A stretch of DNA of 64,000 nucleotides from an uncultured Bacteroidales bacterium. Lineage in GTDB: Bacteria > Bacteroidota > Bacteroidia > Bacteroidales > F082. Shown in pieces: positions 461 through 47,280 of this stretch. The position numbers and the translations under genes were made by a program. Where the stretch lies: contig ONFO01000007.1 in assembly GCA_900317155.1 (NCBI GenBank), positions 1 through 64,000 of the forward strand. The letters are read 5' to 3'. The notes under the pieces were generated by a model. That model did no database searches. It saw only the letters and a list, made by a program, of their open reading frames with translations, and had not been told where the DNA came from. Position 1 is the first letter of the stretch. Each line of letters starts with the position of its first letter.

Positions 461-538
461 ACTATGGCCAATGACTATGGCCCATGGCCGCTCCACGATT
501 TGTAAAAGCGGCCATGGTCATAGGCCATAAGCCATAGT
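461..538. repeat. Long hairpin made of about 7-bp CTATGGC-like units
   Basis: The 138-bp gap between kamE and ctfB holds an imperfect inverted repeat. The left arm has CTATGGC-like units and the right arm the complementary GGCCATA-like units, closing on a short loop near 495-508. Units are mostly 7 bp with one 6-bp step. It begins a few bases after the kamE stop, so it could end transcription or protect the 3' end, but no U-run follows. It belongs to the same heptad family as 2048-2195, 3079-3181 and 40834-40943. Confidence 0.75.
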
Positions 539-570
539 AAAGAAAAAAGAAACAACTTAACAACAAATAG

Positions 571-584
571 TTAAATCTTTAAAT
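571..584 (+). repeat. TTAAATCTTT-type leader repeat before ctfB
   Basis: A short AT-rich stretch (TTAAATCTTTAAAT) sits about 12 bp before the ctfB start codon. The same words occur just before the starts at 2240 and 40719 in the coding orientation. No Shine-Dalgarno sequence is visible, so this may be a preferred leader for translation in this genome (inference). Confidence 0.4.
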
Positions 585-595
585 AACAACACACT

Positions 596-1255
596 ATGGA
601 CAAAAATGAAATGAGAGAAGTGATCGCCAAGCGTGCTGCAAAAGAACTGCACGACGGCGATGTTGTCAATCTGGGTATTGGCATCCCGACTTTGATTCCT
701 AACTACCTGCCCGAAGGCGTCACCGTGACCCTTCAGACCGAGAATGGTGCTATGGGCATGGGCCCGACCCCCGAGGAAGGCAAGGAAGACAAGAACCTCA
801 TCAACGCCGGTGGTGGCGCCATCACGCTGCTGCCTGGTGCCTGCACCTTCGACTCGGCTACTTCGTTCGCCATCATCCGTGGCGGCCATGTGAATGTGTC
901 GTTCCTCGGCGCCCTGCAAGTGGATGAGAAGGGCAACCTCGCCAACTGGATTATCCCGGGCAAGATGGCTCCCGGTATGGGCGGCGCCATGGACCTCGTC
1001 GTGGGTGCCAAGCGCGTCATCTTGACCATGGAACACACCCAAAAGGGTGCTCCCAAGATCCTGAAGGAGTGCACGCTGCCCCTGACCGCTGCCGGACAGG
1101 TGAACATGATCATCACCGAGATGGGTGTCATGGACATCACCCCCGAAGGCATCGTGGTGCGCGAAATCCACCCCGAGTTCACCTTCGAGCAGATGCAAGC
1201 TGCCACCGAGGCCAAGCTCATTCTTGACCCCAACTGGAAACCCATGGACATCTAA
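596..1255 (+). CDS. ctfB: Butyrate/acetoacetate CoA-transferase subunit B
   Basis: 219 residues, full length for the beta subunit of a family I 3-oxoacid CoA-transferase. It moves CoA between butyryl-CoA and acetoacetate, linking lysine breakdown to butyrate release. The family's catalytic glutamate lies in the TENGAMGMG segment (about residues 49-57), and the NAGGGAITLLPG and GGHVNVSFLGALQVD blocks are typical. The gene sits 11 bp before crt, so the two are probably cotranscribed. The partner alpha subunit, usually adjacent, is not seen between kamE and this gene and must be upstream or elsewhere. It could also be annotated atoA or scoB; substrate assignment rests on the neighbourhood. Confidence 0.9.
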   Translation: MDKNEMREVIAKRAAKELHDGDVVNLGIGIPTLIPNYLPEGVTVTLQTENGAMGMGPTPEEGKEDKNLINAGGGAITLLPGACTFDSATSFAIIRGGHVNVSFLGALQVDEKGNLANWIIPGKMAPGMGGAMDLVVGAKRVILTMEHTQKGAPKILKECTLPLTAAGQVNMIITEMGVMDITPEGIVVREIHPEFTFEQMQAATEAKLILDPNWKPMDI

Positions 1256-1266
1256 TCCCTGCGGAC

Positions 1267-2046
1267 ATGGACTACAGTTTCTTGAAGATTGAGCAGCACG
1301 ACCAGATCGCCGTCATGAAAGTGTCGGCACCCAAGTCGTTGAACGCGCTCAACTCGACAGTCCTGAAGGAAATCGACCACTTCGTGAGCAACCTCGACAC
1401 GAAGCAGACGCGCGTCCTCATCATCACGGGCGACGGCGAAAAGGCCTTTGTGGCTGGCGCCGACATCTCGGAGATGGTGCATCTCTATGAGAAGGAAGGC
1501 TACGAGTTCAGCAAACTCGGTGCCATCGCGTTCCGCAAGATCGAGACGCTGCCGATACCCGTCATCGCTGCCGTCAACGGCTTCTGCCTCGGCGGTGGCT
1601 GCGAGTTGGCCATGGCTTGCGACTTCCGTTACGCCTCGTCGAAGGCCAAGTTCGGTCAGCCCGAAGTGGGACTGGGCATCACGCCTGGTTTCAGCGGCAC
1701 CTACCGTTTGGCCAAGCTCGTCGGTCAAGGCTACGCCAAGGAGATGATCTACACGGGCAAGGCCATCCGTGCCGACGAAGCCCTGCGCATCGGCTTGGTA
1801 AACGCCGTCTATGAGCCGGAGGAACTGATGGACAAGGTGATGGAGACCGCCCAGAAGATGGTCGCCAACGCGCCATTGGCCATCGCTTACGCCAAGCAGT
1901 GCATCAACGAGAGTTACGACTTGATTGCCGCCGACGCCATCGAGTTGGAGAACACCGCCTTCGGCAAGTGCTTCGCCACCGAGGACCAGAAGGAAGGCAT
2001 GACGGCGTTTCTAGAGAAGAGGCCTGCGGTGTTTAGAGGGAAGTAA
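1267..2046 (+). CDS. crt: Crotonase (3-hydroxybutyryl-CoA dehydratase)
   Basis: 259 residues, the normal length for an enoyl-CoA hydratase/crotonase. It interconverts 3-hydroxybutyryl-CoA and crotonyl-CoA. The oxyanion-hole segment AFVAGADISEM (about residues 61-71) and the two catalytic glutamates, one in GGGCELAMACD (about 110-120) and one in FGQPEVGLGI (about 131-140), are all present. It follows ctfB closely and is followed by hbd after a 193-bp spacer filled with heptad repeats. With hbd, bcd and etfBA it forms the classic acetoacetyl-CoA to butyryl-CoA module. Specificity for the C4 substrate is inferred from context. Confidence 0.93.
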   Translation: MDYSFLKIEQHDQIAVMKVSAPKSLNALNSTVLKEIDHFVSNLDTKQTRVLIITGDGEKAFVAGADISEMVHLYEKEGYEFSKLGAIAFRKIETLPIPVIAAVNGFCLGGGCELAMACDFRYASSKAKFGQPEVGLGITPGFSGTYRLAKLVGQGYAKEMIYTGKAIRADEALRIGLVNAVYEPEELMDKVMETAQKMVANAPLAIAYAKQCINESYDLIAADAIELENTAFGKCFATEDQKEGMTAFLEKRPAVFRGK

Positions 2047-2047
2047 A

Positions 2048-2195
2048 TGCCTCTGGCTGTTGGCTACTGGCCTCTGGCAATGGGCAGTTAGCTATTAGCA
2101 ATTAGCTGTTAGCATAAAGATACCAAAGCTAATGGCTAACTGCTAAAAGCTAACGGCCAAACAAGCCAAAAGCCAAAGGCCAGAAGCCAAAAGCA
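2048..2195. repeat. Heptanucleotide-repeat hairpin between crt and hbd
   Basis: Starting just after the crt stop, nine consecutive 7-bp units end in GGC or AGC (ctctggc, tgttggc, tactggc, ctctggc, aatgggc, agttagc, tattagc, aattagc, tgttagc). After a short AT-rich loop the other half has units such as gctaatg, gctaact, gctaaaa, gctaacg and aagccaa, roughly complementary. The block can fold into one long imperfect hairpin. It is the longest and most regular member of the heptad family in this window. Confidence 0.8.
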
Positions 2196-2196
2196 A

Positions 2197-2231
2197 TAAA
2201 TCTTGAATATTAAATCTTAAATCTTTAAATC
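2197..2231 (+). repeat. TTAAATCTT-type direct repeats before hbd
   Basis: Three or four copies of an 8- to 9-bp AAATCTT(G/A)AAT-like word stand between the heptad hairpin and the hbd start codon. The same words precede ctfB (571-584) and, in its own orientation, the surface-protein gene starting at 40719. No Shine-Dalgarno site is present. Confidence 0.45.
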
Positions 2232-2239
2232 ATACAAAT

Positions 2240-3076: not shown

Positions 3077-3078
3077 TT

Positions 3079-3181
3079 TGCCTCTGGCTACTGGCCTCTG
3101 GCTACTGGCTGCTTGACAAAAAGAGTGAGGTTCTACCTTATCATAAAGCTGCCAGAAGCCAGGAGCCAAGAGCCAGAAGCC
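3079..3181. repeat. Heptanucleotide-repeat hairpin between hbd and bcd
   Basis: The left arm is built of alternating 7-bp units cctctgg and ctactgg. The right arm is built of agaagcc, aggagcc and aagagcc units, which pair with the left arm. The block begins 3 bp after the hbd stop and ends about 14 bp before bcd. It uses the same unit words as 2048-2195, so the two are clearly related. Confidence 0.8.
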
Positions 3182-4334: not shown

Positions 4335-4335
4335 T

Positions 4336-4341
4336 AGGAGG
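4336..4341 (+). promoter_or_regulatory. Strong Shine-Dalgarno site of etfB
   Basis: AGGAGG lies 8 bp before the etfB ATG. Most genes in this window have no such site, as is usual for Bacteroidetes, so this one stands out. Similar sites precede hydA and hydB. Confidence 0.7.
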
Positions 4342-4349
4342 GAAGCAGT

Positions 4350-7685: not shown

Positions 7686-7691
7686 TAGATT

Positions 7692-11188: not shown

Positions 11189-14100
11189 TCATGTACTTAC
11201 ATTAAAATAGTCGAAACCAATGATGGTATCCACGAAACGGTGTACGTAGTCGGCGGCGGTGGGTGGCCACTGGAATCCACAGCGGTAGAGCACCTGAGTG
11301 GTATAGTCGTTGGTTGACTCAATACTGCGAACCTTACGGTTGCCTCCAAGATTGTAGGCCATCAGCGGGCGCAACAGCGTGATCAGGTCGGGATTGTCCA
11401 TCATGCGGTCGAGGGCTTGCTGGAACTCTTCGGACTCCACGCGCTTCAACACGATACCCGCCTTGGCGAAACCAATCAGCACATCGCTAAGGAACTGGCG
11501 ATGGGTGTTGTTAGGATGGAACACTGTGCAGTCCTTCGGTGTCTGTGACAAGAGCATGATGGCGTGGGCCACCTCGTCGATGGGCGAGAACTCAAAGCGT
11601 TGGTTGAGGGCTTCATATGGCACCATTCCGATGACCACGTATGCACGCAACATCGCTAAGAAGTTGTTGGTGTTGAAGTTAATCTGGAACTCACCATCCT
11701 TCTGGCGCGCCGACAGGTTGCCCACACGCATAATCTTGGCATTCAATCCGTGGTGAGCGATGGCGTCGAGCACCAATTCTTCTGCCTTGAATTTTGAGTA
11801 GGTGTACTTTCTGTCGTTGACATACTGGCCGATGTAGAAGTCTTGCTCAGTCAGTTTGACCTCTGGTCCAGGAACATCGTTGATGCTCATGCCTGCCACG
11901 CTGATTGTCGAGATGTGGATGAGACGAGAATGGGTGCGCAGACAGAAACCAATGAGGTTGCGCACGGACTCGATGTTCACCATCTCGATGTCGTTACCTG
12001 CCGAGAAGTGTTTCACATTGGCTACGCAGTTGATAACCGTCAGGCCTTGTCTGTCGATGGCATCAAGCGCATCGGGCTGCGTGACCTCGGCGGAAATCGT
12101 TTCCACGCGCTCCTCGATATGCGCAAAGGCTTCCGTTCGTCCGAAATAGTAGAAATAGAGCGTTTTCAGTCGCTGCATCGGACTTTGGTCTGCCTTGCTG
12201 CGCAACGGACAAATGATGTGGCCGCCGTAATTCGTTAGCAACTCATTGAGGACATGGATGCCCAAATAGCCTGTGGCACCCGTCAGAAGCACATCGCCAA
12301 TGGGCTGATGCTCGCCATTACGGAAAGCGTTGAGGGTGTTTTTGTCCAAAACGGGAATGAAAGCTGCGTATTCGGAATTATCCATTGGACTTGGCTGATT
12401 CGTCGGGACAGACGGAGACGGAGTGGTCGTGTTGGGAGTTCCAGTATTGCCGCTCACATATTCAGCTAATGCCCTCGGTGTCTTCAAATTAAAGATGTCG
12501 TTGAAGACAATCTGCACACCGCGTTTGCTGGCCTCAACAATGACCTTGATGGCATTAATACTGGTGCCGCCAATCTCGAAGAAGTTGTCGGTAGCACCCA
12601 CCTCCTTGATTTTCAGAATGTCGGAGAAGATGTTGCAGAACAACTCTTCCTTTTCACCCTTTGGCGCCTCATACTCGGTGACACGTTTCATTTCAGGAAT
12701 GGGCAACACCTTACGGTTGATCTTGCCGTTGGGGGTCATGGGCATGGTGTCCATCTGCATATAGGCATCGGGCACCATGTATTCTGCCAACGACGAGGCG
12801 GCAAGGGTCTTGCGGATGTCCTCATCGGTGAGGGTGGAGTTGCTTTCCAGCGTGTAATAAAGCACCAGATGCTCATTGCCCATCACCTTGCGCACCTCGG
12901 CAGCAGCCTGACGGACACCCTCGATGTTTAGGGCTTTGCTTTCGATTTCACCCAGTTCGATACGGAAGCCACGCAGTTTCACCTGAGTGTCGATACGACT
13001 GATGTACTCTAACTGACCCTCCTCGTTCCAACGGCAAAGGTCGCCGGTGTGGTACATGCGGACAGGACGACCCCAGCGGTCTTGCTTGACAAACGGACAA
13101 TCGACGAACGACTTGGCCGTGCGTTCGGGCAGCTGCCAGTAGCCGCGCCCCACCTGAATACCAGCAAAACACAACTCACCAGCCACACCCTGCGGCACAA
13201 GGTTACCTGCGGTATCAACGATGAAGTTCCAGTTATTGGCCACACTTTCGCCAATCGGAATGTTCTCCACGCGACGGCCAGGAGCGATGCTATAATAAGA
13301 GGTGTCGTCAGTACACTCGGTCGGACCATAGACATTGATAATCTCAATATGGTCGCTATAGACACCATCCATCTTCTCGCCACCACCCGTGGTGAAGCGG
13401 ATGGGCAGGTCGTCGAAGGTGTTGAGCAGCAGACTGGTCATTGCCGTCGAGTAGCCGCCACCCGTGATTTGATGGTCGATCAGGAACTGACGAATGGCAC
13501 CAAGGTCCTTTCGGATCTCTGTAGGCATGATGTGGAACGAGCCGCCCAACGTCAATACTGGGTACATATCCTCGATATGTGCGTCGAATGAGAACGAACG
13601 GTGTCCACTGACGCGGTCAGCGGCAGTGAGTTGTTCCATGTCGATGACCACGGCAATAAAGTTGCGCAGTCCAGCTTGGTGGAGCATGGCACCCTTAGGC
13701 TTGCCTGTAGATCCAGAAGTATAAATCATGTAAGCCAAACCATCGGGATTCGACAAGTCGATGGGCTCAGCATTGGGCACATTTTCCATGAAGTCGTCGA
13801 TGAAGAAGGTCTTTGCTGCGGCGGTGTTGAAGTCGCCTTCGGCTTGTTTGGCCTCCAAAACGTCGTGCGAGGTAATCAGCACCTTCGACTCGGAGTTTTC
13901 AAGCATGTAACTCAGACGCTCGTTGGGGTATTCGAAGTCGAGTGGGGTATAGGCGGCACCAGCCTTATGGATGGAGAGCACCGACAGCGGGAATTCTTTC
14001 TTGCGGTCAAGCATGACGCAGACGAAGTCGTTGGGTTGCACGCCAAAGTCGATCAACTGGTGCGCCAAGGCATTCGAGTAGCGGTCCATCTCGCCATAGG

Positions 14101-17100
14101 TCAGCTGGCTGTCCCTATCAACCACTGCGGGCGCGTCGGGTGTGCGTTTGGCTTGTTCGGTGAAAAGGTTGGCGAAGGTCTTGGTGATATCTACGTCAAT
14201 CTCCTTGCCTGTACCTAACTTGATGATACGTTCAGCCTCCTCGTCGCTCACGATGCAGATGCTGTTCAAGGCGGCATCGGGCTTTGCAATCATTCGCTCT
14301 ACCGTTACCTTGACAGCATCGGCCAAACTCTGCATCAGACGGGCGGAATACTTGCCGTTGTCGTAGGCCACACAGACGCTGGGCTGACCATCGACTGGAG
14401 CGATGAAGAAAGTAATGGGGAACTTCGGTGTCTGGATGCCCAATGTCTCCATCTTCAGCGGAGTGCCAGCAACGGTATACTCGGTAGCTATGCCGAGCTG
14501 ATAGACGAATTGTATCTCGGGTGTCAGGCCATAATCGGCTGCGATTTGTGCAAATGGATAGTTCTCGTGGTTTAGTGTTTCATCAAAATTCTTGCTTACC
14601 TCTTGCAGGAAATCCATGACGCTTTGCTTGCCGATGGTGGCACTTATGGCCAAGGTGTTGACAAACATACCAACGGTATTGCGGATGCGCAGGTCGGAAC
14701 GACCGTTGGAAACGGTGGTGATACACACTTGTTCACTATTGGCAAAGCGTGAAAGGGCGTAATAGACCGCTGACAAAGTTAAATGAGCAGGGGTAATCTG
14801 ATGCGCACGGCAGAAGGTATCGATAGTCTTTATATCAAGATTAGACACGGCTTGACTGACTGTCCCCGTCATTGGATTCGGCAGGTCGGGACGCACCTCG
14901 GTGGCACTCTCTACCACAGACAAACGTTCTTTGAAGAAGTCCTTGGCGACTCGATAGTCCTCGCTATCTTCAGCGGCCTTCTCTGCCACGACGTATGCCG
15001 GATAAGAGATGGCTTCTTCCTCGATGGGAGTGCCGTTAAGCAATGCGCAAAGCTGACGGAAGAAGATATCGGTAGAGCCGCCGTCGAAAACAAGGTGGTG
15101 TACATCAAACAACAGATAGGCGCCTTGTTCGGTGGTCACAATCTCGAAGCGGCAGAGCGGTCCGGTGGCAAGGTCGAAAGGACGTACAAAGTCGTTCTTG
15201 TACTGCTCCAACTCCTTCTCGCTCATCGTCTTCACAGGAATAGCTATCGTTAACTCAGGATTGAGGGTCTGAACGATGCCTTCCTCTGACTGGCCGAAGT
15301 GAGCAGTCAACTGTGGATGCTTACCGACCAGCGTTCGAATGGCCTCCGACAGCGCCTCGATGTCAATTTCCTTGGGGAAGGTCACCAAATGGGGTATGTT
15401 GTATTGTATTGCCATCGGGTTTTTCAGGCAGTCAAAATATACACCTGTTTGAGCGTAGCTTAACGGGCAAGTGAGAATTGAGGACTGGGAATCGGCATCA
15501 TCTTTTTTCTTTTGTTCAACCGATTGTCCATTGAGAATAGAACTCAGAATCTCATCCTCAATGCTCATCAGAGAACTGTTCTTCACCATCTGCTTGGCTT
15601 GGAGAGCCACACCATAGCGTTGCTGTATAAGGATAGCCAGACGAATGGCTGACAGAGAGGTGAGACCCACCATGCCCAACGAACATTCAACGTCAACATC
15701 TTCAATACCCAAAATCTCCTTTACCATGTCTTGCAGTTCTTTCTCGATGCGGGTAAGTTTACGCGACGCCGCAGTCCCAGAACCACTTGGCGTTGTTTGC
15801 ACAGTTGGGTCAGGTAGTGCTTTGATGTCAGTCTTGCCATTGGGTGTCATCGGCAGGTTTTCTAACTGCATGTAGGCAGTAGGCACCATGTATTCGGTCA
15901 GATGGCTGCTGATAGCTGTACGCATGGCAGCAATGTCAATCTCGTGGTCGGCGGTGAAATAGGCGCAAAGGTGCTCCATACCACCTATTTGTCGAATAAT
16001 CACCACTACCTGTTTCACCCCATCCACTTGAAGGATGGCGTTCTCCACTTCACCTAATTCGATGCGCAATCCGCGCAACTTGATTTGGTGGTCAGTACGG
16101 CCAAGAATGACCACGTTGCCATCAGGGAGCCACTTGGCATAGTCCCCAGATTTATAGATGCGCTCGCCGTGATATTCCACAAAACGCTCGCGGGTCATCT
16201 CGTCAAGGTTGTTGTAGCCTCGGGCTACACCCTTGCCACCGATATATAATTCGCCCACCACACCTACAGGCAATTCGTTGCCATCGGCATCAACGATAAA
16301 CTCCTTGACGTTCAATTGCGGCTTGCCCACGGTAATATGGGCCGCATCGGTGAGTTCGGCATTGTTTGAAGCCACTGTAATTTCCGTGGGACCATAGCAG
16401 TTGAAGAGGCGTGCCTTAGTGACACTGCGCAATTGGTCAAGCAGTTGCTGTGGATATTTTTCTCCACCGGCACGGCAGATTTTTACGTTGCTGATGACAT
16501 GGCAGAAGTCGTCGCTCGTCAACCAGGTCTGCCAGCGCGACGGTGTGCCACTGACCATGTCGATATGCTGCTCTTCGATGAGTTGCGCCAGTTCGAGCGG
16601 GTTATTGGCTTGTTCCTCTGTGGCAAGGATGAGTGTCTTGCCGTTATAGTAGGCCATGCCAATATCCTGCAAGGCCGCATCGAAAGAGATGGTGGTCACG
16701 CTGAGAATGCGTGTGGCATCGGTCAGCACGGCATTGGCGAAGACATTACCCTGATGACCGTACAGATAGTTGCAGATACTTTCGTGACGTAGCATCACGC
16801 CCTTCGGGCGACCTGTGGAACCGCTAGTATAAATAAGGTAGGCGAGGTCGTCGGGAGTAATTGACAATTGATAATTGATAATTGATAATTGACAATTGAT
16901 GAGTTCATCCACATCAATGGCTTTGTCGGAAGGAACAGCATTGAGGCGGTCTTTAGTCGTGATGATAAAGCGGGCCCCGCTGTCTTCGAGGATGAGCTTT
17001 ACGCGGTCGGCGGGATAGTCGGGGTCGCAGGGGATGTAGGCGGCACCGGCCTTCATCACACCAAACATCGAGAGGATGAGCCTGCTAGTACGCGGCAGCA

Positions 17101-20100
17101 ACAAGGCCACACGGTCGCCCATCTCTACGCCTCGCTGACGTAGACCATTGGCGATGCGGTTGGTCTGTTCGTCCATCTCCTTGTAGGTATAGGTGGCATC
17201 GCAGGCTACCAAAGCCTCTTGCTCAGGTGATTTTTCGGCATAATGCGAGATGCACTCGTGGAAGAACTTAAACGGAGCATCGCCTGTTGCCACCTGGCGC
17301 AAGTGCGATAATTCTTCCTCTTGATTCTTGCTGACGATAGACAGTTGACGCACTTTTGCCTGTGGCTCTTCCATCATTCGCTCAGCAACAGCCGCAATGC
17401 TCTCGGCCAAAGCCTTGCCCAATTGGGCGGAATAGAGCGAGTCGTCATACTGAACGACGACCCCTTGTGGCTCTATCTTGATATTGATTTTGAACTTCGG
17501 CACATTCAGCTCAAGCGTCTCCTGCCCAACGGGCTGTCCGTCAACTTTATAGTCAGACAGCACGCCAACCTGGTAAGCATAGAAGATGGCGGGGTGGAAG
17601 CCGAAATCGCTGGCAATACGCGCAAAGGGATAGTTTTCGTGATGTAGCGTTTCATCGAAGGTTTCGCCAACCTGCTTCAGGTATTCGCCGACGGTCACAT
17701 CATCAATACTCAGCCCGAGAGCCAGCGTGTTGACAAACATTCCCACCGTATCCGCGATCTTCAGATTCGAACGACCGCTACTGATGGTGTTCAGATACAC
17801 CTCGCGATTGTTAGTGTAGCGCGAGACCACATAACTGGTAGCGGCAAGGAACAAGTGCGCTGGTGTAATCTCCAGCTGACGACAGAAAGCAGCCGCTTTT
17901 TCGTGATTTGTCGGGCAAACAGCCTCACCGATGAAGCCTTGCTGGTCGGTCTTTGGCATATCGGCAGGAATCTCGCTGGCACCCTCACAATTCTGCAGTT
18001 TTTCAGCAAAGAACTGCTGAGCGGCCTTGAAGTCATCACTATTGGCATCTTTCTGCTGGTCGGATACGAAGTCAAAGTAGGTGTAGGCTTCTTTCTCAAC
18101 GGCAGAATTTTCGAGCATGCTGATGATTTGATGGATAAACAAATCGGCTGAGCCACCGTCGAACACTAGGTGGTGGACATCCATCAAGAGTTTGATGCCG
18201 CTTTCGGTCTTCACCACTTCGAAACGATAGAGGGGGGGCTTCTGAAGATCGAACGGACGGACGAACTCGCGTTTGTATGTGGCCAATTGCTGGTCGGACA
18301 TTTCATTTACGGGCACTTCCACGGGAAAGCTATCCGCAAGGGTTTGCATCACGGTGTCGCCTTCTGTAGTGAAATGGACATGCAATTCCGGATGGGCCTC
18401 AATGACCCGTTTGACGGCATCCGCTAACTTCGCATCTTCGATACCGGCAGGGAAACTCAGCAAGAAAGGAATGTTGTAAAGCGTTGAGGTCGGGTTGCTT
18501 ACACAATCGATATAGACACCTGTCTGGGCGTAGGAGAGCGGAACGCTTTTTAGTTGAGAGTTAAGAGTTGAGGGTTGAGAGTTGGCCTCTTGAGTCGAGG
18601 ATTTCAAATCTCCTCCAGCTATGACACCGCCAGCCATCACGTTTTTCCATATCTCGTTCTCAATGCTCTGCAAGGTACCATTCTTGACAAGGGCCTTCGA
18701 ATCCAGTGTCACGCCGTAACGCTTATTCACCTGTACCGCCAGCTTGATAGCAGAGATAGAGGTCAGTCCAACATAGCTAAGTTTAGTGGTAACACCGAAA
18801 GCAGAGGTATTCACAATGCCAGCAATCAACTCATGAAGTTCCTGCTCCAAATCATTCATCGGCACGTCACTCTCCATTACAGCCTCTTCCGCTTTCTTTT
18901 CGGGTTTCGGTAATGCCTTCTTGTTCACCTTCTGGTTTTGGTTGAGTGGAATGCGGTCAATCTGCATCGTCACGGCGGGCACCATGTAAGGCGGCTTTTG
19001 GTCGAGGATGAAGTTGTTGAGTGCCTCGATGTCTATCTGTTCATCTGCAACGATATAGGCAGCGATGAACTTGCCACCGCCCTCATCGTCGAAAGCTTGC
19101 ACTGTGGCATCCTTGATGCCGGGGAACTCGCGAATGACGGCTTCCACCTCTTTCAACTCGATGCGGAAACCGCGAATCTTCACTTGACCGTCCTTGCGGC
19201 CCACAAACTGGATGTTGCCATCAGGCAGGTAGCGCACAATGTCGCCTGTACGATAGGCGCGGATGTATTTCTTTTCGGTGGTAAAGGGATTTTGGATAAA
19301 CACTTCTGCGTTTTTATCCGGTCGGTTCAGGTAGCCGAGCGCCACTTGCGGTCCTGCTGCCCACAGTTCGCCCATAGCTCCCACGGGCAGACGATGTCCT
19401 TGCTGGTCGACCACATAGAGCCTCACATTGTCCAAAGGCTTGCCGATGGGAACATCGGTGTCTTTCTTCGTGACGGGATAGATGGTGATGAGGATGGTGG
19501 CCTCTGTTGGGCCGTAGCCGTTGTGCAGCTGATAGCCTTGAGGCGGAGCGATACTGGCCAACTTCTCGCCAGCCACCGACATGTGAATCAAGGAATGGTT
19601 CTCGATGTTCGTCGCAAACTGATAGCCCACCTGGGTAGTCATGAAGGTGTGGGTAATGTGTTCGCGCTCCAAATATTCGTTGAGTGACACGAGGTCCAAA
19701 CGGAGCTCCTCCGGAATGATGTGTACGGTGGCACCGCCCGTCAGTGGGGGATAGATACCCTCTTGATGTACATCGAAACCATAGCTGGCGTATTCCGCCA
19801 CGTTGTGCTCTGGCTTCAGGTCGTAATACTTCCAGTACCAGTTGCAATAGTTCACCAGATTGCCGTGCGTCAGCTGACAACCTTTTGGAACGCCTGTCGA
19901 ACCAGAAGTGTAGAGCAGGATAAATCGGTCTGATGGGGAAAGTTGAGAGTTGAGAGTTGAGAGTTTAGAGTTGGCTTCCGCTGTGAGGGGAGGGAGTTGT
20001 AAAAACTCTTTCGTCAGCAACACTTCGCCCTGATATTCATCCACCAGGTCACGCAGCGACTCGTCGGCAATGAGTAACTTGGCATCAGCATCCATCACCA

Positions 20101-34151: not shown

Positions 34152-37100
34152 AGATGCCGTAGTTGCCTCCGTTGGCCGTCACTTGGCCACCACTGATGTA
34201 GAGACTGCCAGCACTGGCATAGAGGCCGTAGTCGCCTCCGTTGGCCGTCACTTGGCCACCACTGATGTAGAGACTGCCAGCACTGGCATAGAGGCCGTAG
34301 TCGCCTCCGTTGGCCGTCACTTGGCCGCTGATGATGCGGAGGTCGCCGCCACCGGCAAAGATACTATTGTGCGAAGTGGCCGTGGCCGTCACTTGGCCAC
34401 CGCTGATGTAGATAGTGCCGCCATTGGAATATCTGCTTGAAAAAATAACATAGTCATTACCTGTGGCCGACACCGTGCTGCCAATGATGTTGATGTTGCC
34501 GCCATAGGCATAGATGCAATAGTTCGAAGTGGCTGTGGCCGTCACATCGCTGTTGTAGATGGTGATGTAGCCGCCTGTGGAATACCTATCTGCGTAAATC
34601 ACATTGGCATTTCCAGTGGCCGATACCGTGCTGCCATTGATGTAGATGTCGCCGTTACCGGTAAAGATGCAATAGTCTGAAGTGGCCGTGGCCGTCACAT
34701 CGCTGTTGTTGATGGTGATGCTGCCGCCACTGGCAAAGATGCAATAGTCCGAAGTGGCCGTGGCCGTCACATCGCTGTTGTTGATGGTGATGCTGCCGCC
34801 ATTATATTGCATGTATGCGTAAATAACATGGTCGTTTCCCGTGGCCGACACTTGGCCGCCATCGATGTTGATGTTGCCGCCCTGTGCATAGATGGCATTA
34901 CTGCCAGGGACGTTGACCGTGACCGTGGCATCCTTGAGGTTGATGCTGCCTTTTGAGGAATTATAAGCCAATGCCCAGATGCCATAACTGGATGCGGTAA
35001 CCGAAACCCTTGCGTTGCTGCAGTTGAAGTCGCCGTTGTAAGCCCAAATGCCATATTGCGAGGCATATACATTGAGTTGGCCGTTGTTTTCTCCCGTACT
35101 CTGGCCATAGATATCGATGGAGAAATTGTTTGGGCCAGCATCACCGAAGCCATTGCCGCTGACGGGGGTTTCCGCCGTACCAATGTTCATTACGGCGTTG
35201 TCCTTCAGGATGAGATGCACATCGCCGCTGGGGATGAGGGTCTGATTGTAGTTGAGCGTGCCGTCGGCCACATACCAGCCTACCGCGAGTGTGGTTTCCG
35301 TGCCGTCAAGCACAGTGTATTCGGTACACAACTGCCGTTGGCCGTTCTCGTCGAGGTAGGGAACGCTGCCCTCGATGTAAGGAAGGAGCTTCTTCCCGTC
35401 GACGGGGTATGTATAGGTTGTTCCGTCTCGCTCGATGATGCCGCTGTAGGTGTTGCCTTCCTCGTCGATGAAGGCCTGGCCGTCGGCAACCTGTACGACT
35501 GCATTGCTATTGCTCAATGAGTAGCCGCTGGCGTCGATATAGTCGTCGGCGTTCTTCCAGCCGAGGATGATGCTGCCGTCAGAATTGGCGTTGATGCCAG
35601 TTAAGCGTTGTTTGCTCTTGGCTGTGCACTTACCGCCGAGGATGTTGACGTTGCCTCCGCCACTGATGCCGTAGTAGGAGTCGCCGATGGTGCTGAGCGT
35701 GCCGTCGCGGAGAGTGACATCACCTCCAGTGAAGATGCCGTGGATGCCAGCGCTGATGGTGACATTGCCGCCGTTCTGCTCGTAGTCGTCATCGACGGAG
35801 ATGCCATACTCCTCGCAATAAATATAAAGGTGTCCGCTGCCGGCACTCTGGCCATAGATGTGGAGTGAGCCATTTTCGCCGATGCCATATTCGCCGCTAA
35901 TGGGCTGCTGCTCTGTGCCAACATTCATCACGGCACCGTCCTTCAGGATGAGATGCACGTCGCCGTAGAGGGTGATGGTCTGGCTGTAGTTGCGCGTGCC
36001 GTCGGCCACATACCATGTTTCTTGGCCTGCTGTGCCGAGCGAGGTTTCCGTACCTTCAAGCAGGGTGTAGTTGCCCTGTAAGCACAACTGCCGCTCGCCG
36101 TTCTCGTCGATGTAGGGCACGCTGCCCTCAATGTAGGGATACAGTGTCTTCCCGTTGATGGCGTAGGTTCCGTTCACTCTGGCGACGGTGCCGCTGTAGA
36201 GGTTGCCGTCCTCGTCAATGAAGGCCTGGCTGAGGGTGATGTTGGAGTTGGAGTAGTCAATGTAATAACTGTCCGCATGGATGAAGTCGGTGGGATTGGT
36301 CCAGCCGAGGGCGAGGTTGCTACCGTATGAATAGATGCCGTAGTTGCCTCCGTTGGCCGTTACTTGGCCGCCGCTGATGTTGAGGCCGCCACTTGAGGCA
36401 AGGATGCCGTAGGTGCTTCCGCTGGCCGTCACTTGGCCACCGCTGATGTTGAGGCTGCCACCACTGGCAAAGATGCCGTAGTTGCCTCCGTTAGCCGTCA
36501 CTTGGCTGCCGCTGATGGTGAGGTTGCCGCCATCATAGTATTGCTTGTATGCGTAAATAACATAGTTTTTTCCCGTGGCCGACACCTTGCCGCCATCGAT
36601 GTTGATGTTGCCGCCCTGTGCATAGATAGCATGGTCATTAGTGGAGTTGACTGTGACCGTGGCATCCTTGAGTTTGATGTTGCCTTTTGAGGAATAATTA
36701 TAAGCCAATGCCCAGATGCCATAACTGGATGCGGTAACCGAAACCCTTGCGCTGCTGCAGTTGAAGTCGCCGTCGTAAGCCCAGATGCCATTTTGCGAGG
36801 CATATACATTGAGTTGGCCGTTGTTTTCTCCCGTGCTTTGGCCATAGATATTGATGGAGAAACCGTATTGGCCAGCCTCACCGAAGCCATTGCCGCTGAC
36901 GGGTGTTTCCGCCGTGCCAATGTTCATCACGGCGTTGTCCTTCAGGATGAGATGCACGTCGCCGCTGACGGTGAGGGTCTGATTGTAGTTGAGCGTACCA
37001 TCGACCACATACCAGCCTGCCGCGAGAGGGAAGGTTTCCGAGCCGTCAAGCACGGTGAAATCAATGCATCGCTGTGTGTCGCCATTCATGTCAAGGTAAC

Positions 37101-40100
37101 TGACGGGGTCGTGGAGCGGCATGGTGAAACTCACTTCGTTGCTCCAGTAACTCACGCCGTCGCCGCCGCAGTTGGCGCGCACCTTCACAGTATGGGTGCT
37201 CAGGATTTCGAGATTGTCGAGGATGAACGGATTGCTGTCGACAGCGATGAGGTTGCTTTCGTCGCCGTCGAGGCAGATTTGCCAGTCGGTCTGGTCTTCG
37301 TCGCCGTTGGTCCAACCGAGTTGAACGCGCTGCGTCCCGAGAATGGTGGCCATGAGGCGGGTGGGCTTGGCGCAAGGAAGAACATCTTCCACATTGACCT
37401 CGTCCAAGTAGATGTAGGCATCGCCATTAAAGTTACGGTTGGAGGTTCCCTTGAAGACGATGACCACTTCTTGCCCGGCGTATGCGCCGAGGCTGATGGT
37501 GTATGGGGTCCATTCCTGCTGGTTGGTGAGTCCGGTGGCCAAGGCCGTCGTGTGGGTGTCGCCGCCGTCGGTGGAGAGGTAAACGGAGAAGTCGCCGCCT
37601 GCGGGGTTCTTGTACCAGAAGGACAACTGCATCTCGGGTGAAGCAGGCAGGCTGAGGGGCACGGTTTTCAAATAGTTGGTTGTGCCGTTGAAGTTGTTGT
37701 AAGAATTATACCGCACGCAATTCGTGCCGTCGTAACTGGTGCCGTTGGTGGCGCCGTAGCCGTTGATGGCGGTAGTGAAATAGCCCCACCGATCGAAGAA
37801 TGTTCCCTCTATCTCCATGTAATTCCAGCAGCCGGGGATGCGGCCATCATCGGTAAGGTCGTTGAAGTTTTCTGTCCAGGGAAAGTCGCTGACGATGGCA
37901 GACGATGACCATGCGGCGTTGATGGTCACGTTGGAACTGGGCATGGTGAAGAAGTGGTAGGCGCCGTTGCTGCTGAGTGTCAGTGGGATTCCGGCAGGTT
38001 CGGTGATGAAGTCGGCGCAGGAAATTGGGGTACTTATGCTGATGTGCACTTCGTCGCCTGCGGCTGCATATTGTTTATAAGTAGAGAGGCCTTGATTGTG
38101 GCAAAAGCCGGTATTGTAGAAATAAAGCCTGCTGGTGTTGTAAGTGTAGGTATAACCACTAGTATTGTACACCCCTATGACATTCTCGCCACTGTTGATG
38201 CTGTAGGCTTGTGTGCCTTGGGGCGTGCCGAGGGCGTCGGTATAGTAGCAGTTTGCGTTGTCGGGCATTGTCCAGTTGCGGACGAAGGTGGCGCAGGGCG
38301 TGTTGCCATCAACGGTGTTGATAGTGACCTGGACGGGTACGAAGAGGCTGTTGGTGATGTTGACGGTTTGGCTGCGCCAGCCGACGAAGCCGCCGCAGGA
38401 GTGGGTCGAGGCGCCGAGCAACTGGCCGTTGAAGACGCAGCCCTCGATGGTGAGGGTTTTGCCGTCGTAGTTGCCCTGCACGGCTACGAGTCCGCCGTGG
38501 GTGCCGTCGCCCTCGGTGCTACTGTCGATGGTGACGCTGCTGAGGCAGTCGGTGATGGTAGCCGAGCCTTGCGCGATGCCGATGATTCCGCCGGCGTACT
38601 TGCCGTCGGTGCTGATGGTGCCGTCGACGGTACAGCCGCTCACTGCGATTTGGGCGTCTTTGACCACTTGGCTGGCGATGCCTGCGGGATAGAGGTCGGT
38701 GTTGGTGGAGCCCTTGGTGGCAGTGATGTCGACCGTGACGTTGCAGTTGGTGACATCGACGTAGCCCCATACCAAGGCGATGAGTCCGGCCATGTGGCGT
38801 TGGTCGTGGGCGGTGATGTTGGTCACCACGTTCAGGTCGTGGATGACGGCGTGGTCGGTGTCGCTGTTGCCCAACACGTTGCGGAAAGGCGCCAAGTAAC
38901 TGGCGGTTGCGGTGGCGGTAAAGGTCAGCGTTTTGTGGTTACCGTCGAAGGTGCCGAGGAAGTCGTGGTTGTCGTAGCCAGCCATGCGTGTGACGCTGAT
39001 GTCCGCTCCCAATTTCACGGTTTGGCCGCTGAAGCGGTTCCACGTGCCGTTGTTGTAGAGCGCGTCGCAGAAGTAGTCCCAGTCGTTCTCGTTATTGATG
39101 AGGTAGGCGCCGTTGTTGTCGGTGCTGAGCGTCGGCGCGACGTAATAGAGGCCGTTGTAATAGAGGCCGTTCTCATAGACGGTCATATCCATGAAACTGT
39201 AGGTCGCCCCCTGAGTGCCAAGGCCGGCAGGGGCGGTGGCGCGGCCGGTGGTCTTGGTGCCGTCGGCGGCAATGAAGTTGGCATTGGTCGCGGTGGGTGC
39301 CACGGCTGCGAAGACGTTGGTAGCCGTCAGGTTGGTGGCACTGCTGGTGTTGTGCAGGGCTATGGGGTGGAATGCGGCGGTGCCTGTCGCGGTGCCTTGG
39401 TAGTTGCCGGCGAAGAGGCAGTTCTCAAGGGTGAGCGTGTTGCCGTCGCTCCAGCCTTGCAAGCCGCCGATGTAGTTCTTGTCGCAGGTGATGGTGCCAG
39501 CATAGACGCAGTTGCGCAGGGTGAGGTCGACGGGGTTGTTGCCTCCGAAGCCGTGACCCACGATGCCGCCGCAGTGCCTGTTGTTGCCTACGGTGGAGTT
39601 GACGTTGGCCTCCACGAGGCAGTTCTCGATAAGGATGGTGCCGGCGCTGGCCTTGCCTACCAATCCGGCGGCGTGGGTGGTGCCGGTGACGGTGCCGGTG
39701 ACGTGCAGGTTGCGGATGGTGGCGTTGCTGATGAAGCGGAAGGGCGCGGTGCCTTGTTCCCCTGTGTCGGTGATGTTCACGTCGAGCGTGTGTTCCTGAC
39801 CGTCGAAGGTGCCCATGAACCTATGATCATCGCTGCCCGCCGATTGCGTGATGCTGATGTTGGCGCCGAGTTTCACGGTCTTGCCGGTGAAGTAGCCACT
39901 GGGCTTTAGGGTCAGTGTGTCGCAGAACATGCCCCAGCCCTCAGCGCTGTTGATGGTATAGGTGTTGCCGTCGTCGCTGATGGTGAAGGGAAGGGGAGCA
40001 AATTCGTAGTAGCGATTTTCACCAGGCCAAACTTCATACTCGGTCTCTACACCTTCCGTGAGATGTGTAGCCTCATGCGTTGAAGGGTCGACAGTCCAGA

Positions 40101-40719
40101 TGTCGCTGCCCGACTGGCTGAGGCCAATCTGGAAAAAATAAGGGTCAGATGAGGACGCACCGTAAACTATAACAACTTTGGAGGTGGATTCATGGAGCTG
40201 CACCTGCCATTTGATAGTGGCAGGATCTATATTTGAACCATTCCCAAAAAGATAGAACTCGCAGACTAAGACGCGGTTAGGTGATGTGCCAGTCAACTCA
40301 TATTTGACATAGCCGTCGGTGCCGGTACTCATGTCTCTGGATATTCCGCAAATCTTGGGCTGGTTCTTAGTGCAGTTACTCGGATTAAACTGATTGCTGT
40401 AATTGGTTGTAGGAGTACTGTTGAAACTGAAGATGCCATTGGAGTTAGCCCAAAACTGGGTGTAAGTCCCGTCGCCAAACGTGAACGAGAAGCCGATGTC
40501 GGTAAGGGAAGAACAAGCGTCATCTTGGCCTGACGCAACAATCTGAGTGGCACTGTTACTCAGCGTAATCCATTGGTTTTGATTCACGCCGGTCGTGAAG
40601 GCGTACTCGGCCAAGTTCTGCGCGAAAGCGGTGGAAGGCGTCGCGCAGGCGAAGACGAGGGCGAGCAGGGTTAGGGCTGCCCTTTTCAGATGTTTTGTTG
40701 GTGTAAATTTGTGTTGCAT
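34006..40719 (-). CDS. Giant secreted repeat protein (GLUG, adhesin-like, FN3, beta-helix repeats), truncated
   Basis: 2237 residues as it stands. A signal peptide (about 1-34, ending ATPSTAFA before QNLAEY) is clear. Then come an N-terminal beta domain, GLUG-type repeats (about 250-850; AAGLVGKASAG, CGGIVGHGF), a short InlB-B-like segment (FITEPAGIPLTL), a cleaved-adhesin/MAM-like lectin fold (about 945-1110; FPWTENFNDL, YIYLDEVNVEDV), and an FN3-like domain (about 1115-1200). Last is a long right-handed beta-helix of YGIYASGGSLNISGGQVTANG-type repeats (about 1240-2206). The last 30 residues (NKRHHHPSGR onward) are out of frame because of a 74-bp deletion; the proper C-terminus is in 32640-34088. 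It is most likely a surface adhesin or matrix protein. A long 5' leader with a heptad hairpin precedes it. Confidence 0.85.
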   Translation of the reverse strand: MQHKFTPTKHLKRAALTLLALVFACATPSTAFAQNLAEYAFTTGVNQNQWITLSNSATQIVASGQDDACSSLTDIGFSFTFGDGTYTQFWANSNGIFSFNSTPTTNYSNQFNPSNCTKNQPKICGISRDMSTGTDGYVKYELTGTSPNRVLVCEFYLFGNGSNIDPATIKWQVQLHESTSKVVIVYGASSSDPYFFQIGLSQSGSDIWTVDPSTHEATHLTEGVETEYEVWPGENRYYEFAPLPFTISDDGNTYTINSAEGWGMFCDTLTLKPSGYFTGKTVKLGANISITQSAGSDDHRFMGTFDGQEHTLDVNITDTGEQGTAPFRFISNATIRNLHVTGTVTGTTHAAGLVGKASAGTILIENCLVEANVNSTVGNNRHCGGIVGHGFGGNNPVDLTLRNCVYAGTITCDKNYIGGLQGWSDGNTLTLENCLFAGNYQGTATGTAAFHPIALHNTSSATNLTATNVFAAVAPTATNANFIAADGTKTTGRATAPAGLGTQGATYSFMDMTVYENGLYYNGLYYVAPTLSTDNNGAYLINNENDWDYFCDALYNNGTWNRFSGQTVKLGADISVTRMAGYDNHDFLGTFDGNHKTLTFTATATASYLAPFRNVLGNSDTDHAVIHDLNVVTNITAHDQRHMAGLIALVWGYVDVTNCNVTVDITATKGSTNTDLYPAGIASQVVKDAQIAVSGCTVDGTISTDGKYAGGIIGIAQGSATITDCLSSVTIDSSTEGDGTHGGLVAVQGNYDGKTLTIEGCVFNGQLLGASTHSCGGFVGWRSQTVNITNSLFVPVQVTINTVDGNTPCATFVRNWTMPDNANCYYTDALGTPQGTQAYSINSGENVIGVYNTSGYTYTYNTSRLYFYNTGFCHNQGLSTYKQYAAAGDEVHISISTPISCADFITEPAGIPLTLSSNGAYHFFTMPSSNVTINAAWSSSAIVSDFPWTENFNDLTDDGRIPGCWNYMEIEGTFFDRWGYFTTAINGYGATNGTSYDGTNCVRYNSYNNFNGTTNYLKTVPLSLPASPEMQLSFWYKNPAGGDFSVYLSTDGGDTHTTALATGLTNQQEWTPYTISLGAYAGQEVVIVFKGTSNRNFNGDAYIYLDEVNVEDVLPCAKPTRLMATILGTQRVQLGWTNGDEDQTDWQICLDGDESNLIAVDSNPFILDNLEILSTHTVKVRANCGGDGVSYWSNEVSFTMPLHDPVSYLDMNGDTQRCIDFTVLDGSETFPLAAGWYVVDGTLNYNQTLTVSGDVHLILKDNAVMNIGTAETPVSGNGFGEAGQYGFSINIYGQSTGENNGQLNVYASQNGIWAYDGDFNCSSARVSVTASSYGIWALAYNYSSKGNIKLKDATVTVNSTNDHAIYAQGGNINIDGGKVSATGKNYVIYAYKQYYDGGNLTISGSQVTANGGNYGIFASGGSLNISGGQVTASGSTYGILASSGGLNISGGQVTANGGNYGIYSYGSNLALGWTNPTDFIHADSYYIDYSNSNITLSQAFIDEDGNLYSGTVARVNGTYAINGKTLYPYIEGSVPYIDENGERQLCLQGNYTLLEGTETSLGTAGQETWYVADGTRNYSQTITLYGDVHLILKDGAVMNVGTEQQPISGEYGIGENGSLHIYGQSAGSGHLYIYCEEYGISVDDDYEQNGGNVTISAGIHGIFTGGDVTLRDGTLSTIGDSYYGISGGGNVNILGGKCTAKSKQRLTGINANSDGSIILGWKNADDYIDASGYSLSNSNAVVQVADGQAFIDEEGNTYSGIIERDGTTYTYPVDGKKLLPYIEGSVPYLDENGQRQLCTEYTVLDGTETTLAVGWYVADGTLNYNQTLIPSGDVHLILKDNAVMNIGTAETPVSGNGFGDAGPNNFSIDIYGQSTGENNGQLNVYASQYGIWAYNGDFNCSNARVSVTASSYGIWALAYNSSKGSINLKDATVTVNVPGSNAIYAQGGNINIDGGQVSATGNDHVIYAYMQYNGGSITINNSDVTATATSDYCIFASGGSITINNSDVTATATSDYCIFTGNGDIYINGSTVSATGNANVIYADRYSTGGYITIYNSDVTATATSNYCIYAYGGNINIIGSTVSATGNDYVIFSSRYSNGGTIYISGGQVTATATSHNSIFAGGGDLRIISGQVTANGGDYGLYASAGSLYISGGQVTANGGDYGLYASAGSLYISGGQVTANGGNYGIYAYGGTITLGWTNPTDFIHANKRHHHPSGRSLRHRREDAVSLQRRLRL
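34150..34345. repeat. Tandem repeats of about 69 bp coding beta-helix rungs
   Basis: A unit containing gccgtcacttggccacc and gactgccagcactggc is repeated two to three times with nearly no change, encoding LYASAGSLYISGGQVTANGGDYG. The near identity suggests recent expansion or a spot where assembly could collapse copies. Confidence 0.8.
34680..34805. repeat. Tandem duplication coding two identical beta-helix rungs
   Basis: A unit of about 70 bp with gtcacatcgctgttgttgatg appears twice in a row, encoding ATSDYCIFASGGSITINNSDVT. A larger block around 34800-35230 is also repeated with few changes at about 36540-37000. Confidence 0.75.
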
Positions 40720-40721
40720 GA

Positions 40722-40766
40722 TATTTAAGATTTAAAATTTAAAGATTCAAGATTTAAAGATTGGCC
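40722..40766 (-). repeat. TTTAAATCTT-type leader repeats before the surface-protein gene
   Basis: In the coding orientation the 45 bp before the ATG are repeats of AATCTTTAAATCTT and TTTAAATTTTAAATC. The same words stand before ctfB and hbd. Confidence 0.5.
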
Positions 40767-40833: not shown

Positions 40834-40943
40834 GGGACTTTTTACTATGACCATTGACTATGACCATGACCGCTTTCACAGGAATGCTGAAATTTCAGCT
40901 CTTGGTTGAGGTGGTCATTGTCATAGTCACAAGTCATAGTCCC
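40834..40943. repeat. Heptad-type hairpin in the 5' leader of the surface-protein gene
   Basis: The left arm GGGACTTTTTACTATGACC plus further CTATGAC units pairs with GGTCATT, GTCATAG, TCATAGT and CCC on the right across about 40 bases. Units step by 6-7 bp. It lies between the predicted promoter at 41002-41009 and the start codon at 40719, so it would be in the mRNA leader. The 358-bp gap otherwise holds only AT-rich sequence. Confidence 0.7.
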
Positions 40944-45142: not shown

Positions 45143-45148
45143 AATCAG

Positions 45149-46564: not shown

Positions 46565-46576
46565 GGTTTTAGCAAC

Positions 46577-46609
46577 ACGCCGCAGTCTGCATAAAACAGA
46601 CCACGGCGT
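46577..46609 (-). terminator. Hairpin between the DUF3127 gene and mnmE
   Basis: ACGCCGCAGTCTG pairs imperfectly with CAGACCACGGCGT around a short loop, 12 bp before the mnmE start on the - strand. It may end the upstream transcript or lie in the mnmE leader; only a short T-run follows. Confidence 0.55.
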
Positions 46610-46625
46610 TCAATTTAACATAATG

Positions 46626-47030
46626 TCAGAAGGGAAGATCATCCACGCTGTCTTCGCCCGCCGGAGGATAGTAATCCTGTACGGGAGCGGCTACAGGCGG
46701 CGTTTGATGCATCATGGGTTGCTGCACAGGTTGTGCAGGAGCTGAGACTGGAGCAACCGCAGCGCCAACGGGGTCGAAACGCCAAACGCGTACATCCGTG
46801 TACCATTTCCCATTGAATTCGCGCGATGAAATCTCAATCTGTGCCTTGATGGTCTGTCCAGGTGCAAATTTCTGTATTTCGTCGATTTGGTTCGTCCAGC
46901 AGGTTAAACAAACTGTACGAGGATATTGCTCCTCGGTTTCAATGATTAGATCTTGTTTGCGCCATGGACCGCGGGCGCTTGTACCTTCGGTCAGATTACC
47001 GAGTCTGACCACTTTTCCTATAATTTCCAT
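46626..47030 (-). CDS. DUF3127 protein with an SSB-like C-terminal tip
   Basis: 134 residues from ATG 47030; the longer in-frame start at 47075 lies in an AT-rich leader and is rejected. The domain is MEIIGKVVRLGNLTEG to KWYTDVRVWRF, with the CLTCWTNQ and FNGKWYTD segments of DUF3127, a small OB-fold-like family. A proline- and glutamine-rich linker then leads to EDSVDDLPF. That acidic tip ending in PF resembles the C-terminal tail of single-stranded DNA-binding protein, which recruits partners. A role in DNA binding or repair is therefore plausible but not established. It has its own promoter (47109-47116) and lies upstream of mnmE. Confidence 0.82.
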   Translation of the reverse strand: MEIIGKVVRLGNLTEGTSARGPWRKQDLIIETEEQYPRTVCLTCWTNQIDEIQKFAPGQTIKAQIEISSREFNGKWYTDVRVWRFDPVGAAVAPVSAPAQPVQQPMMHQTPPVAAPVQDYYPPAGEDSVDDLPF

Positions 47031-47108
47031 TGAGTTATTATTTAATGATTTAAAATTCAAATATTTAAAATTCAAAATTCCAAGAAATCAACCTGGAATT
47101 TTAAACTG

Positions 47109-47116
47109 CAAAGGTA
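47109..47116 (-). promoter_or_regulatory. -7 box TACCTTTG of the DUF3127 gene
   Basis: TACCTTTG on the - strand, 79 bp before the start at 47030, fits TAnnTTTG. The leader between is made of AATTTTAAATC-type repeats. Confidence 0.55.
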
Positions 47117-47245
47117 ATCATCATTTTGGTTTCGACAAGCGAAAAACTGATGGAAATGGCAAATTTTTGCATTCTTTTCCGTTTTGTTCTTTTTGAAAAT
47201 AATCAACATTATGTTAAATAGTAGATAAAACACTACTCCTACAAC

Positions 47246-47280
47246 GGACTCTAAACTCTAAACACTCAACTCTAAACTAA
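47246..47280 (-). repeat. Heptad repeat just after the exonuclease gene
   Basis: On the - strand the sequence downstream of the stop reads as 7-bp units TTTAGAG, TTGAGTG, TTTAGAG, TTTAGAG. They are the complement type of the ACTCTAA/ACTCTCA units inside the three-module NRPS. Here the repeat is intergenic and forms no hairpin. Confidence 0.7.

Follow-up and report, generated by a model that had tools for sequence, protein, structure and literature searches.

Heptanucleotide hairpins between protein genes of Bacteroidales as probable relatives of an intercistronic S23 element

A stretch of 64,000 nucleotides from an uncultured Bacteroidales bacterium (lineage F082; assembly GCA_900317155.1, contig ONFO01000007.1), hereafter the window, carries tandem arrays of seven-base units, termed heptads, several of which form long hairpins between genes. 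It corresponds to bases 1-64000 of contig 40 in a genome of 3.80 Mb in 65 contigs, whose nearest named relatives are metagenome-assembled Bacteroidales genomes, several of them of rumen origin. The solitary heptad hairpins are probably relatives, devoid of an open reading frame (ORF), of an intercistronic element that encodes a small S23/four-helix-bundle protein and is akin to the intervening sequences (IVSs) of rRNA, but resides between protein genes. This reading builds on the heptads themselves, their placement, their turnover at one spacer, their dispersed families, and an association with S23 genes that was observed in both search directions and in two phyla. IVSs of 23S rRNA are thought to be selfish, and RNase III excises them from the transcript. 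To our knowledge, S23/four-helix-bundle genes have no known job, nor has any source been named so far for the heptamer repeats of cyanobacteria and other bacteria.

The S23 family PF05635 was found in 28 of the 36 genomes of relatives and in none of 14 control genomes. Of 32 PF05635 loci in relatives, 30 yielded an ORF, and the partial match L166 was excluded from the flank count; the loci L289 and L292 gave no ORF. Heptads were scored within 130 bases of the ORF, and flanks were considered complementary at a score of 14 or more. By these measures, heptads occurred on both sides of 15/30 PF05635 ORFs compared with 0/157 same-size genes (Fisher p 3e-14), and on either side of 21/30 compared with 16/157, while complementary flanks enclosed 22/30 ORFs and only 2/157 same-size genes. 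When flanks were swapped between elements, merely 7/196 pairs were complementary. The left neighbour of the S23 ORF, where one was called, ran in the same direction in 25/25 cases, and heptad tracts frequently set in at its stop codon and once more at that of the S23 ORF. The genes behind these flank counts, as well as behind the placement, spacer and E1/E2-neighbour counts given below, were called by a crude script and not by a published gene caller. The S23 ORFs are under purifying selection (e.g. nonsynonymous and synonymous divergence, dN 0.029 and dS 0.544); pN/pS was 0.07 for two species with the ORF at the same spacer, and it did not exceed 0.57 in any of the 32 pairs compared. Among solved structures, 2gsc and 2rld come closest in sequence.

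Heptads accompany the same gene family at larger phylogenetic distances. Within the Bacteroidota, PF05635 was present in 116/148 genomes sampled; among 30 loci of this phylum-wide set, heptads lay on either side in 14 and on both sides in 4, and flanks were complementary in 14/30 compared with 3/196 swapped pairs. Of 25 plasmid records matching PF05635, 23 were cyanobacterial, and 14 of the latter were examined: heptads lay beside 11 of these S23 ORFs and flanked 6 of them on both sides, with complementary flanks in 6/14 compared with 9/182 swapped pairs. Three four-helix-bundle ORFs of cyanobacterial plasmids (L327, L331 and L333) are inserted between cas genes, in operons such as cas10-cmr3 and cas6-cas4. 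The reverse scan started from heptads alone and covered 2.21 Mb for complementary tract pairs 200-1200 bases apart, which yielded 13 pairs. Five of them, with gaps of 365-431 bases, each enclosed a four-helix-bundle ORF, including one in genome G032 that the family search had not brought up, and the other 8/13 comprised an ordinary gene between two separate hairpins. Moreover, the word of a solitary tract was identical, up to rotation and strand, to the arm word of an S23 element in 18/60 cases, 200 letter shuffles averaging 3.9 and reaching 9 at most. In close relatives, the word also tracks the protein (Mantel r -0.209, 0/2000 permutations as low); a specificity of the protein for its word was considered and rejected, the correlation being explained by shared ancestry only.

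Turnover at a single site is apparent in the hbd-acd spacer of the butyryl operon, which, just past the hbd stop codon, is empty in some relatives and holds a heptad hairpin or an ORF with heptad arms in others. Heptads occur in 25/48 distinct sequences and use 22 different words, the median spacer measuring 95 bases with heptads and 25 without. Unrelated words are found there despite 97-99% protein identity of hbd (e.g. L065 and L083), and the ORF within the arms in L072, L079 and L088 encodes a four-helix-bundle protein of TIGR02436. Hence, the related unit words described in the initial annotation, which was made from the sequence of the window alone, are only partly right: the words are numerous, differ between loci as well as between species at one locus, and the tracts do not constitute one family. 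Shine-Dalgarno-like GGAGG/AGGAG motifs were present in 0/59 heptad spacers of the butyryl operon and in 14/199 others (acd-etfB included, at 4335-4349 in the window); an exclusion of such motifs by heptads was dropped as uninformative in the genome samples, where only 5/332 co-directional spacers have the motif (p = 1.0). The neighbouring crt-hbd spacer is, in relatives, a hot spot of insertions of 734 to about 4100 bases with other small genes (L063, L065, L066, L067, L068, L077 and L079), whose families were judged by eye only.

Two hairpins of the window, E1 (2048-2195) and E2 (3079-3181), represent dispersed families with a conserved tip, copies of which occur at other loci and in other species, begin at the upstream stop codon and finish before the next start. 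Among 19 copies, 16 lie between two co-directional genes, 2 have one called neighbour, and 1 is situated between divergent genes. An independent origin of each tract from unrelated sequence, which the initial annotation had named as evidence against a spreading family, is excluded for these two GGC/GTTAGC families because the alignment with their copies, from other loci and other species, continues through the hairpin tip; many pure-word tracts may still have arisen in this way. Such a local birth, in which slippage and template switching multiply a chance word in sevens and copy it inverted within neutral spacers, would involve nothing mobile, and S23 genes would merely prefer such spacers or carry slippage-prone ends. 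It agrees with the observation that the two arms share a word but that only 23/72 hairpins, mainly of the GGC/GTTAGC families, pair more strongly than every one of 30 versions of themselves with permuted heptads, as well as with exact 14-base doublings, the missing target duplication, the diversity of words at one site, and periods of 8, 9 and 11 in other lineages. On the other hand, the alignment of E1 and E2 copies over tip and arms alike, the reverse scan, which found only four-helix-bundle ORFs inside arms, and the exact word sharing with S23 elements above all 200 shuffles speak against it, and local birth appears somewhat unlikely as the general explanation.

The placement of the tracts was assessed in 1.16 Mb from six genomes, comprising stretches on contigs met in earlier searches and therefore not a random sample; five stretches picked for their matches (L058-L062) were excluded from the counts. 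Intergenic positions accounted for 52/62 tracts (0.40 per kb, compared with 0.0097 per kb elsewhere; p 7e-40). Tract density amounted to 0.516 per kb in co-directional, 0.208 in convergent and 0.233 in divergent spacers (co-directional versus all others, p 0.0065), and since the tracts are denser in co-directional than in convergent spacers, a reading as terminators is not favoured. Regardless of type, hairpins are most frequent in convergent spacers (39/53 with z below -3).

The start of 17/41 co-directional tracts lies at most 10 bases from the upstream stop codon, compared with 8.1 +/- 1.9 under random placement, which would be in keeping with RNA devices that are retained between cistrons to couple translation, stall ribosomes or influence mRNA stability, a role suggested for the repetitive extragenic palindromic sequences (REPs) of E. 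coli near stop codons. According to the accessible part of one study, ribosomes are said to stall at REPs that are no more than 15 nt away from a stop codon (PMC12306157). The single orientation of E1 copies with co-directional neighbours (11/11) points the same way, and so does the G-richer arm, which is on the 5' side in 59/69 decided heptad hairpins (co-directional sample, butyryl-operon spacers and copies), compared with an even split of 69 to 70 in non-heptad co-directional hairpins; the non-heptad ones of the butyryl operon lean 21 to 3. This rule is valid on both strands, however, and is thus a property of the element that does not itself show an effect of the RNA. Selection for wobble pairing in the sense RNA was not supported either, the ratios of G-U to A-C mismatches being 64:91, 70:63 and 33:48, without an excess of G-U. 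In addition, many orthologous spacers lack any hairpin, tract ends within 20 bases before the next start are just slightly in excess (17/41 versus 12.8 +/- 2.4), and z is below -2 in only 19/32 heptad co-directional spacers of the sample. RNA devices are an unlikely basis of the hairpins.

Transposition as REP-like repeats by a Y1 transposase (REP-associated tyrosine transposase, RAYT) is disfavoured and highly improbable. The Y1_Tnp domain occurs in 29/36 relatives, and a single Y1 gene is situated no more than 1 kb from an E1 copy (L173, G019 contig 238), in contrast to the otherwise missing association with RAYTs; yet heptads were found beside only 1/27 RAYT ORFs, on both sides of 0/27, and anywhere in just 4/30 RAYT loci. 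RAYT was rejected as mobiliser owing to this near-total lack of heptads beside its ORFs. A reverse transcriptase was likewise dismissed as a partner, its gene being matched in only 19/36 relatives. On contig 44 of the genome to which the window belongs, an S23 ORF (158121-158435) with AT-rich heptads on both sides is located ~8 kb from the sole reverse transcriptase match of this genome (166616-167212).

In the preferred reading, the full form of the intercistronic S23 element is the one encountered in relatives: past the upstream stop codon comes one heptad arm, then a short ORF for a four-helix-bundle protein (PF05635/TIGR02436, S23-/Avd-like), then a second heptad arm, inverted, and finally the start codon of the following gene. 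The solitary hairpins in the window would be the same form minus the ORF, and may derive from S23 elements. The S23-like protein might recognise the armed hairpin and help it to spread. The element is presumably mobile, and the hairpins would persist between the stop and start codons of their neighbours because insertions are tolerated there. Turnover of heptads by slippage within each arm, which is shown in part, would lead to arms that share the word but not each base.

Several observations weigh against this reading. Heptads on both sides accompany only half of the ORFs from genus- and order-level relatives and 4/30 of those from the phylum. Tracts also occur in genomes devoid of a PF05635 match, i.e. 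G002 (6 in 140 kb, 72% complete) and G014 (an hbd-acd hairpin, 85% complete). No ORF lies within the hairpins of the window, and the four PF05635 matches of its own genome are on contigs 44, 35, 35 and 24. Complementary flanks alone are unspecific, given that 10/27 RAYT genes have them, and some cyanobacterial arms are direct instead of inverted (L331). With one mismatch allowed, word sharing is not convincing (45/60, shuffle mean 36.3, maximum 46), and the 60 solitary tracts still include the two arms of the S23 element of G032, which was found later. The link between word and protein is gone below 70% identity (p = 0.13). Target-site duplication did not exceed that of swapped flanks, the shared flank word averaging 4.94 compared with 4.87 bases and reaching at least 9 in 1/62 compared with 2/926; duplications that seemed likely by eye at L066, L065, L075, L076 and L080 were discarded on these grounds. 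Finally, the one candidate for a derivative by ORF deletion, L112, looks like an emptied S23 element at the same spacer and, resting on about a dozen bases, is only suggestive.

The period of seven is the clearest short-period excess in the window, in a sample of its own genome and in Bacteroidales loci. At a threshold of at least 21 matches in 28, the window has 7 clusters at lag 7, compared with no more than one at any of lags 2-6 and 8-13; lags 14 and 21 show harmonics of lag 7, and lag 15 reflects a separate AT-rich family. At the strict threshold of 24 of 28, 364 kb from the own genome were scanned as well: lag 7 gave 11 clusters, lags 2-6, 8-11 and 13 gave none and lag 12 gave 1, while three order-4 Markov copies had 1, 0 and 0 clusters of lag 7 when the threshold was loosest, and no such cluster at stricter ones. 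At looser thresholds, lags 8 and 15 also go up in the own-genome sample and in relatives, which in the own genome is due to one AT-rich family that mixes 7- and 8-base steps. Among 80 named loci around one gene, three groups of 332, 420 and 170 kb contained 40, 34 and 10 lag-7 tracts, respectively; the other lags from 4 to 13 gave at most 2 in the first group, and the second group had 21, 7 and 12 at lags 8, 9 and 11. Periods of 8, 9 and 11 were noticed in hairpins and tandem units of other Bacteroidales (L111-L148), and hence seven is the commonest unit length but not the sole one. The 1.16 Mb from six genomes contained 62 lag-7 tracts, 18 at lag 8 and none at lags 5, 6 and 13. The genome-wide excess of period seven, whose absence would have contradicted the initial annotation, was therefore present in the window, in the 364 kb of the genome and in the Bacteroidales loci.

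Eight sites of period seven had been proposed within the window, and the sequences were as described at all of them. Six overlap lag-7 clusters (2048-2195, 3079-3181, 16861-16901, 18551-18586, 19940-19974 and 47246-47280), while the other two have a different period: 461-538 is best at lag 13 (15 of 21, with only 14 of 21 at lag 7), and 40834-40943 at lag 13 or 6 (16 and 14 of 21, with only 11 of 21 at lag 7). An additional lag-7 cluster at 40718-40759 was absent from the original list. The assertion that four sites form long hairpins held, the minimum free energies (MFEs) being -42.5, -70.9, -53.6 and -55.2 kcal/mol with z of -8.3 to -10.2 relative to base-shuffled copies of each site; the remaining four do not fold (z -1.2 to +0.8). 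No match to Rfam, rRNA families included, was obtained in the window at gathering cut-offs. All features are compiled in Table 1.

Table 1. Heptad tracts and related hairpins in the window (NRPS, non-ribosomal peptide synthetase).
Positions	Strand	Feature	Location	MFE (kcal/mol)	z
461..538	.	hairpin, period 13, word like GGCCATA, weakly heptadic	between called gene ending 457 and start at 596 (crude caller)	-42.5	-8.8
2048..2195	+	hairpin family E1, nested GGCNNNT and GTTAGCT heptads	fills crt-hbd spacer from just past the stop codon
2197..2231	+	AT-rich direct heptads (TAAATCT)	just 5' of hbd start codon at 2240
3079..3181	+	hairpin family E2, TGGCNNN and inverted GCCANNN heptads	fills hbd-acd spacer
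16855..16905	-	in-frame NRPS heptads, peptide NCQLSIINYQLSI	ends 8 residues before TSGSTG of adenylation domain
18550..18586	-	in-frame NRPS heptads, peptide NSQPSTLNSQL	between PP-binding and condensation domains
19932..19976	-	in-frame NRPS heptads, peptide NSKLSTLNSQLS	ends 7 residues before TSGSTG of adenylation domain
40718..40759	-	AT-rich direct heptads	directly upstream of start of large gene 34006-40719
40834..40943	.	hairpin, mixed period (13 and 6), word GACTATGACCAT	spacer between genes ending 41078 and starting 40719	-55.2	-10.2
47246..47280	-	heptad tract, AGTTTAGAGTTGAG in the gene's sense; no partner arm recognised	at stop codon of gene 47277-47888 (RNase_T domain)

Three tracts lie within the coding sequence of the NRPS gene at 11189-21670 and, in agreement with the initial annotation, are in frame. 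Two of them precede the A3 motif TSGSTG of the first and second adenylation domains by 7 and 8 residues, respectively, and the third separates a carrier (PP-binding) from a condensation domain; TSGSTG and HHxxxDG served as motif patterns. In a paralogous module of the window, 25 residues extend from LTK to TSGSTG, compared with 33 in the first module (counted by hand). All three tracts have the stop-free orientation, whereas the opposite one would put a stop codon into every frame. They could represent the same words, accommodated in this orientation where the protein tolerates extra residues.

Elsewhere in the window, short palindromes of the GTAGAGACG type at 48729-48783 and 49405-49454 occupy co-directional spacers; by eye they resemble GTAG-tagged REPs and constitute a different hairpin class in the same kind of place as the heptad hairpins. 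The gene at 34006-40719 (2237 residues) contains long tandem repeats with units of 69 to 225 bases at 34148-34950 and 36333-36523, and has only weak beta-helix and MAM matches.

If heptamers and S23 genes belong together, each would explain the other, and the protein would gain a likely target, the heptad hairpin. The word changes at one spacer would then provide a natural clock for the origin and turnover of the element, and many operon gaps of Bacteroidota would have been shaped by selfish elements ending exactly between the stop of one cistron and the start of the next. Several unexplained repeat families may even have one common source, as hinted at by S23-flanking heptads in relatives and in cyanobacteria. 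In a wider and more tentative version, which is possible but which we do not favour, rRNA IVSs, cyanobacterial heptamers and Bacteroidota hairpins would share an origin as one superclass, in which an S23/Avd-like ring protein reads the words and spreads or protects the element, and so-called junk repeats would be the footprint of one unrecognised mobile system between cistrons.

The resemblance to the cyanobacterial short tandemly repeated repetitive (STRR) sequences, which the initial annotation had pointed out, is now a tested link, given that heptads adjoin the same S23/four-helix-bundle gene in both groups; the shared word did not hold up, no TAACTGA being found among the tracts of the window. 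STRR heptamers are mainly intergenic tandem 7-base units, as is the case here. TAACTGA heptamers of Beggiatoaceae, cyanobacteria and some Bacteroidetes are, in the accessible part of their description (PMC4679880), tandem 7-base units that are mainly intergenic, above chance and often placed over a stop codon or near a start, again as seen here. The same part gives LSVISYQ as the product of reversed repeats, which stay open within ORFs, to which LSTLNSQ and LSIINYQ of the window are similar. In contrast, those repeats are described there as direct repeats of one word, while many words, inverted arms and a gene tied to them were observed in the present case.

Other known systems share single features with the heptad hairpins. 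REPs and bacterial interspersed mosaic elements (BIMEs) are intercistronic hairpins near stop codons as well, as far as the accessible parts of two papers go (PMC12306157, PMC3733652), but the elements considered here are larger, built of heptads and free of an association with the Y1 transposase. Miniature inverted-repeat transposable elements (MITEs) are similarly short, ORF-less, equipped with inverted repeats and dispersed in copies, but no target-site duplication was found for the hairpins. PF05635 is said to resemble Avd of diversity-generating retroelements (PMC10053308, in part); the ORF matches the Avd model at E 1e-9 to 2e-4 and yet scores below its cut-off (38 bits or less compared with 80), and reverse transcriptase genes are confined to about half of the relatives.

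The closest counterpart is the IVS of 23S rRNA. In Coxiella, an rRNA IVS has an S23 ORF with tandem heptamers upstream of it, inside the stem, according to the accessible part of PMC4990558; apart from this paper, the matches listed in a literature search, mostly outside subscription journals, contained neither a link between heptads and S23 genes nor the words reported here. Both kinds of element combine the same protein family (S23p, PF05635, TIGR02436) with an inverted-repeat stem, the stem ends being present at four sites of the window and as complementary flanks of the S23 elements in relatives. They differ in that the PF05635 ORF is found in related elements and not in the hairpins of the window, that the arms consist entirely of heptads with a word varying between elements, and that ORF-less hairpins are abundant. 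Since both the hairpins and the S23 ORFs are located between protein-coding frames and not in 23S rRNA, the position by which rRNA IVSs are defined, they are not classed as members of that group. Taken together, the element is best regarded as a variant of the IVS/S23 kind that lives between cistrons and is new in that place.

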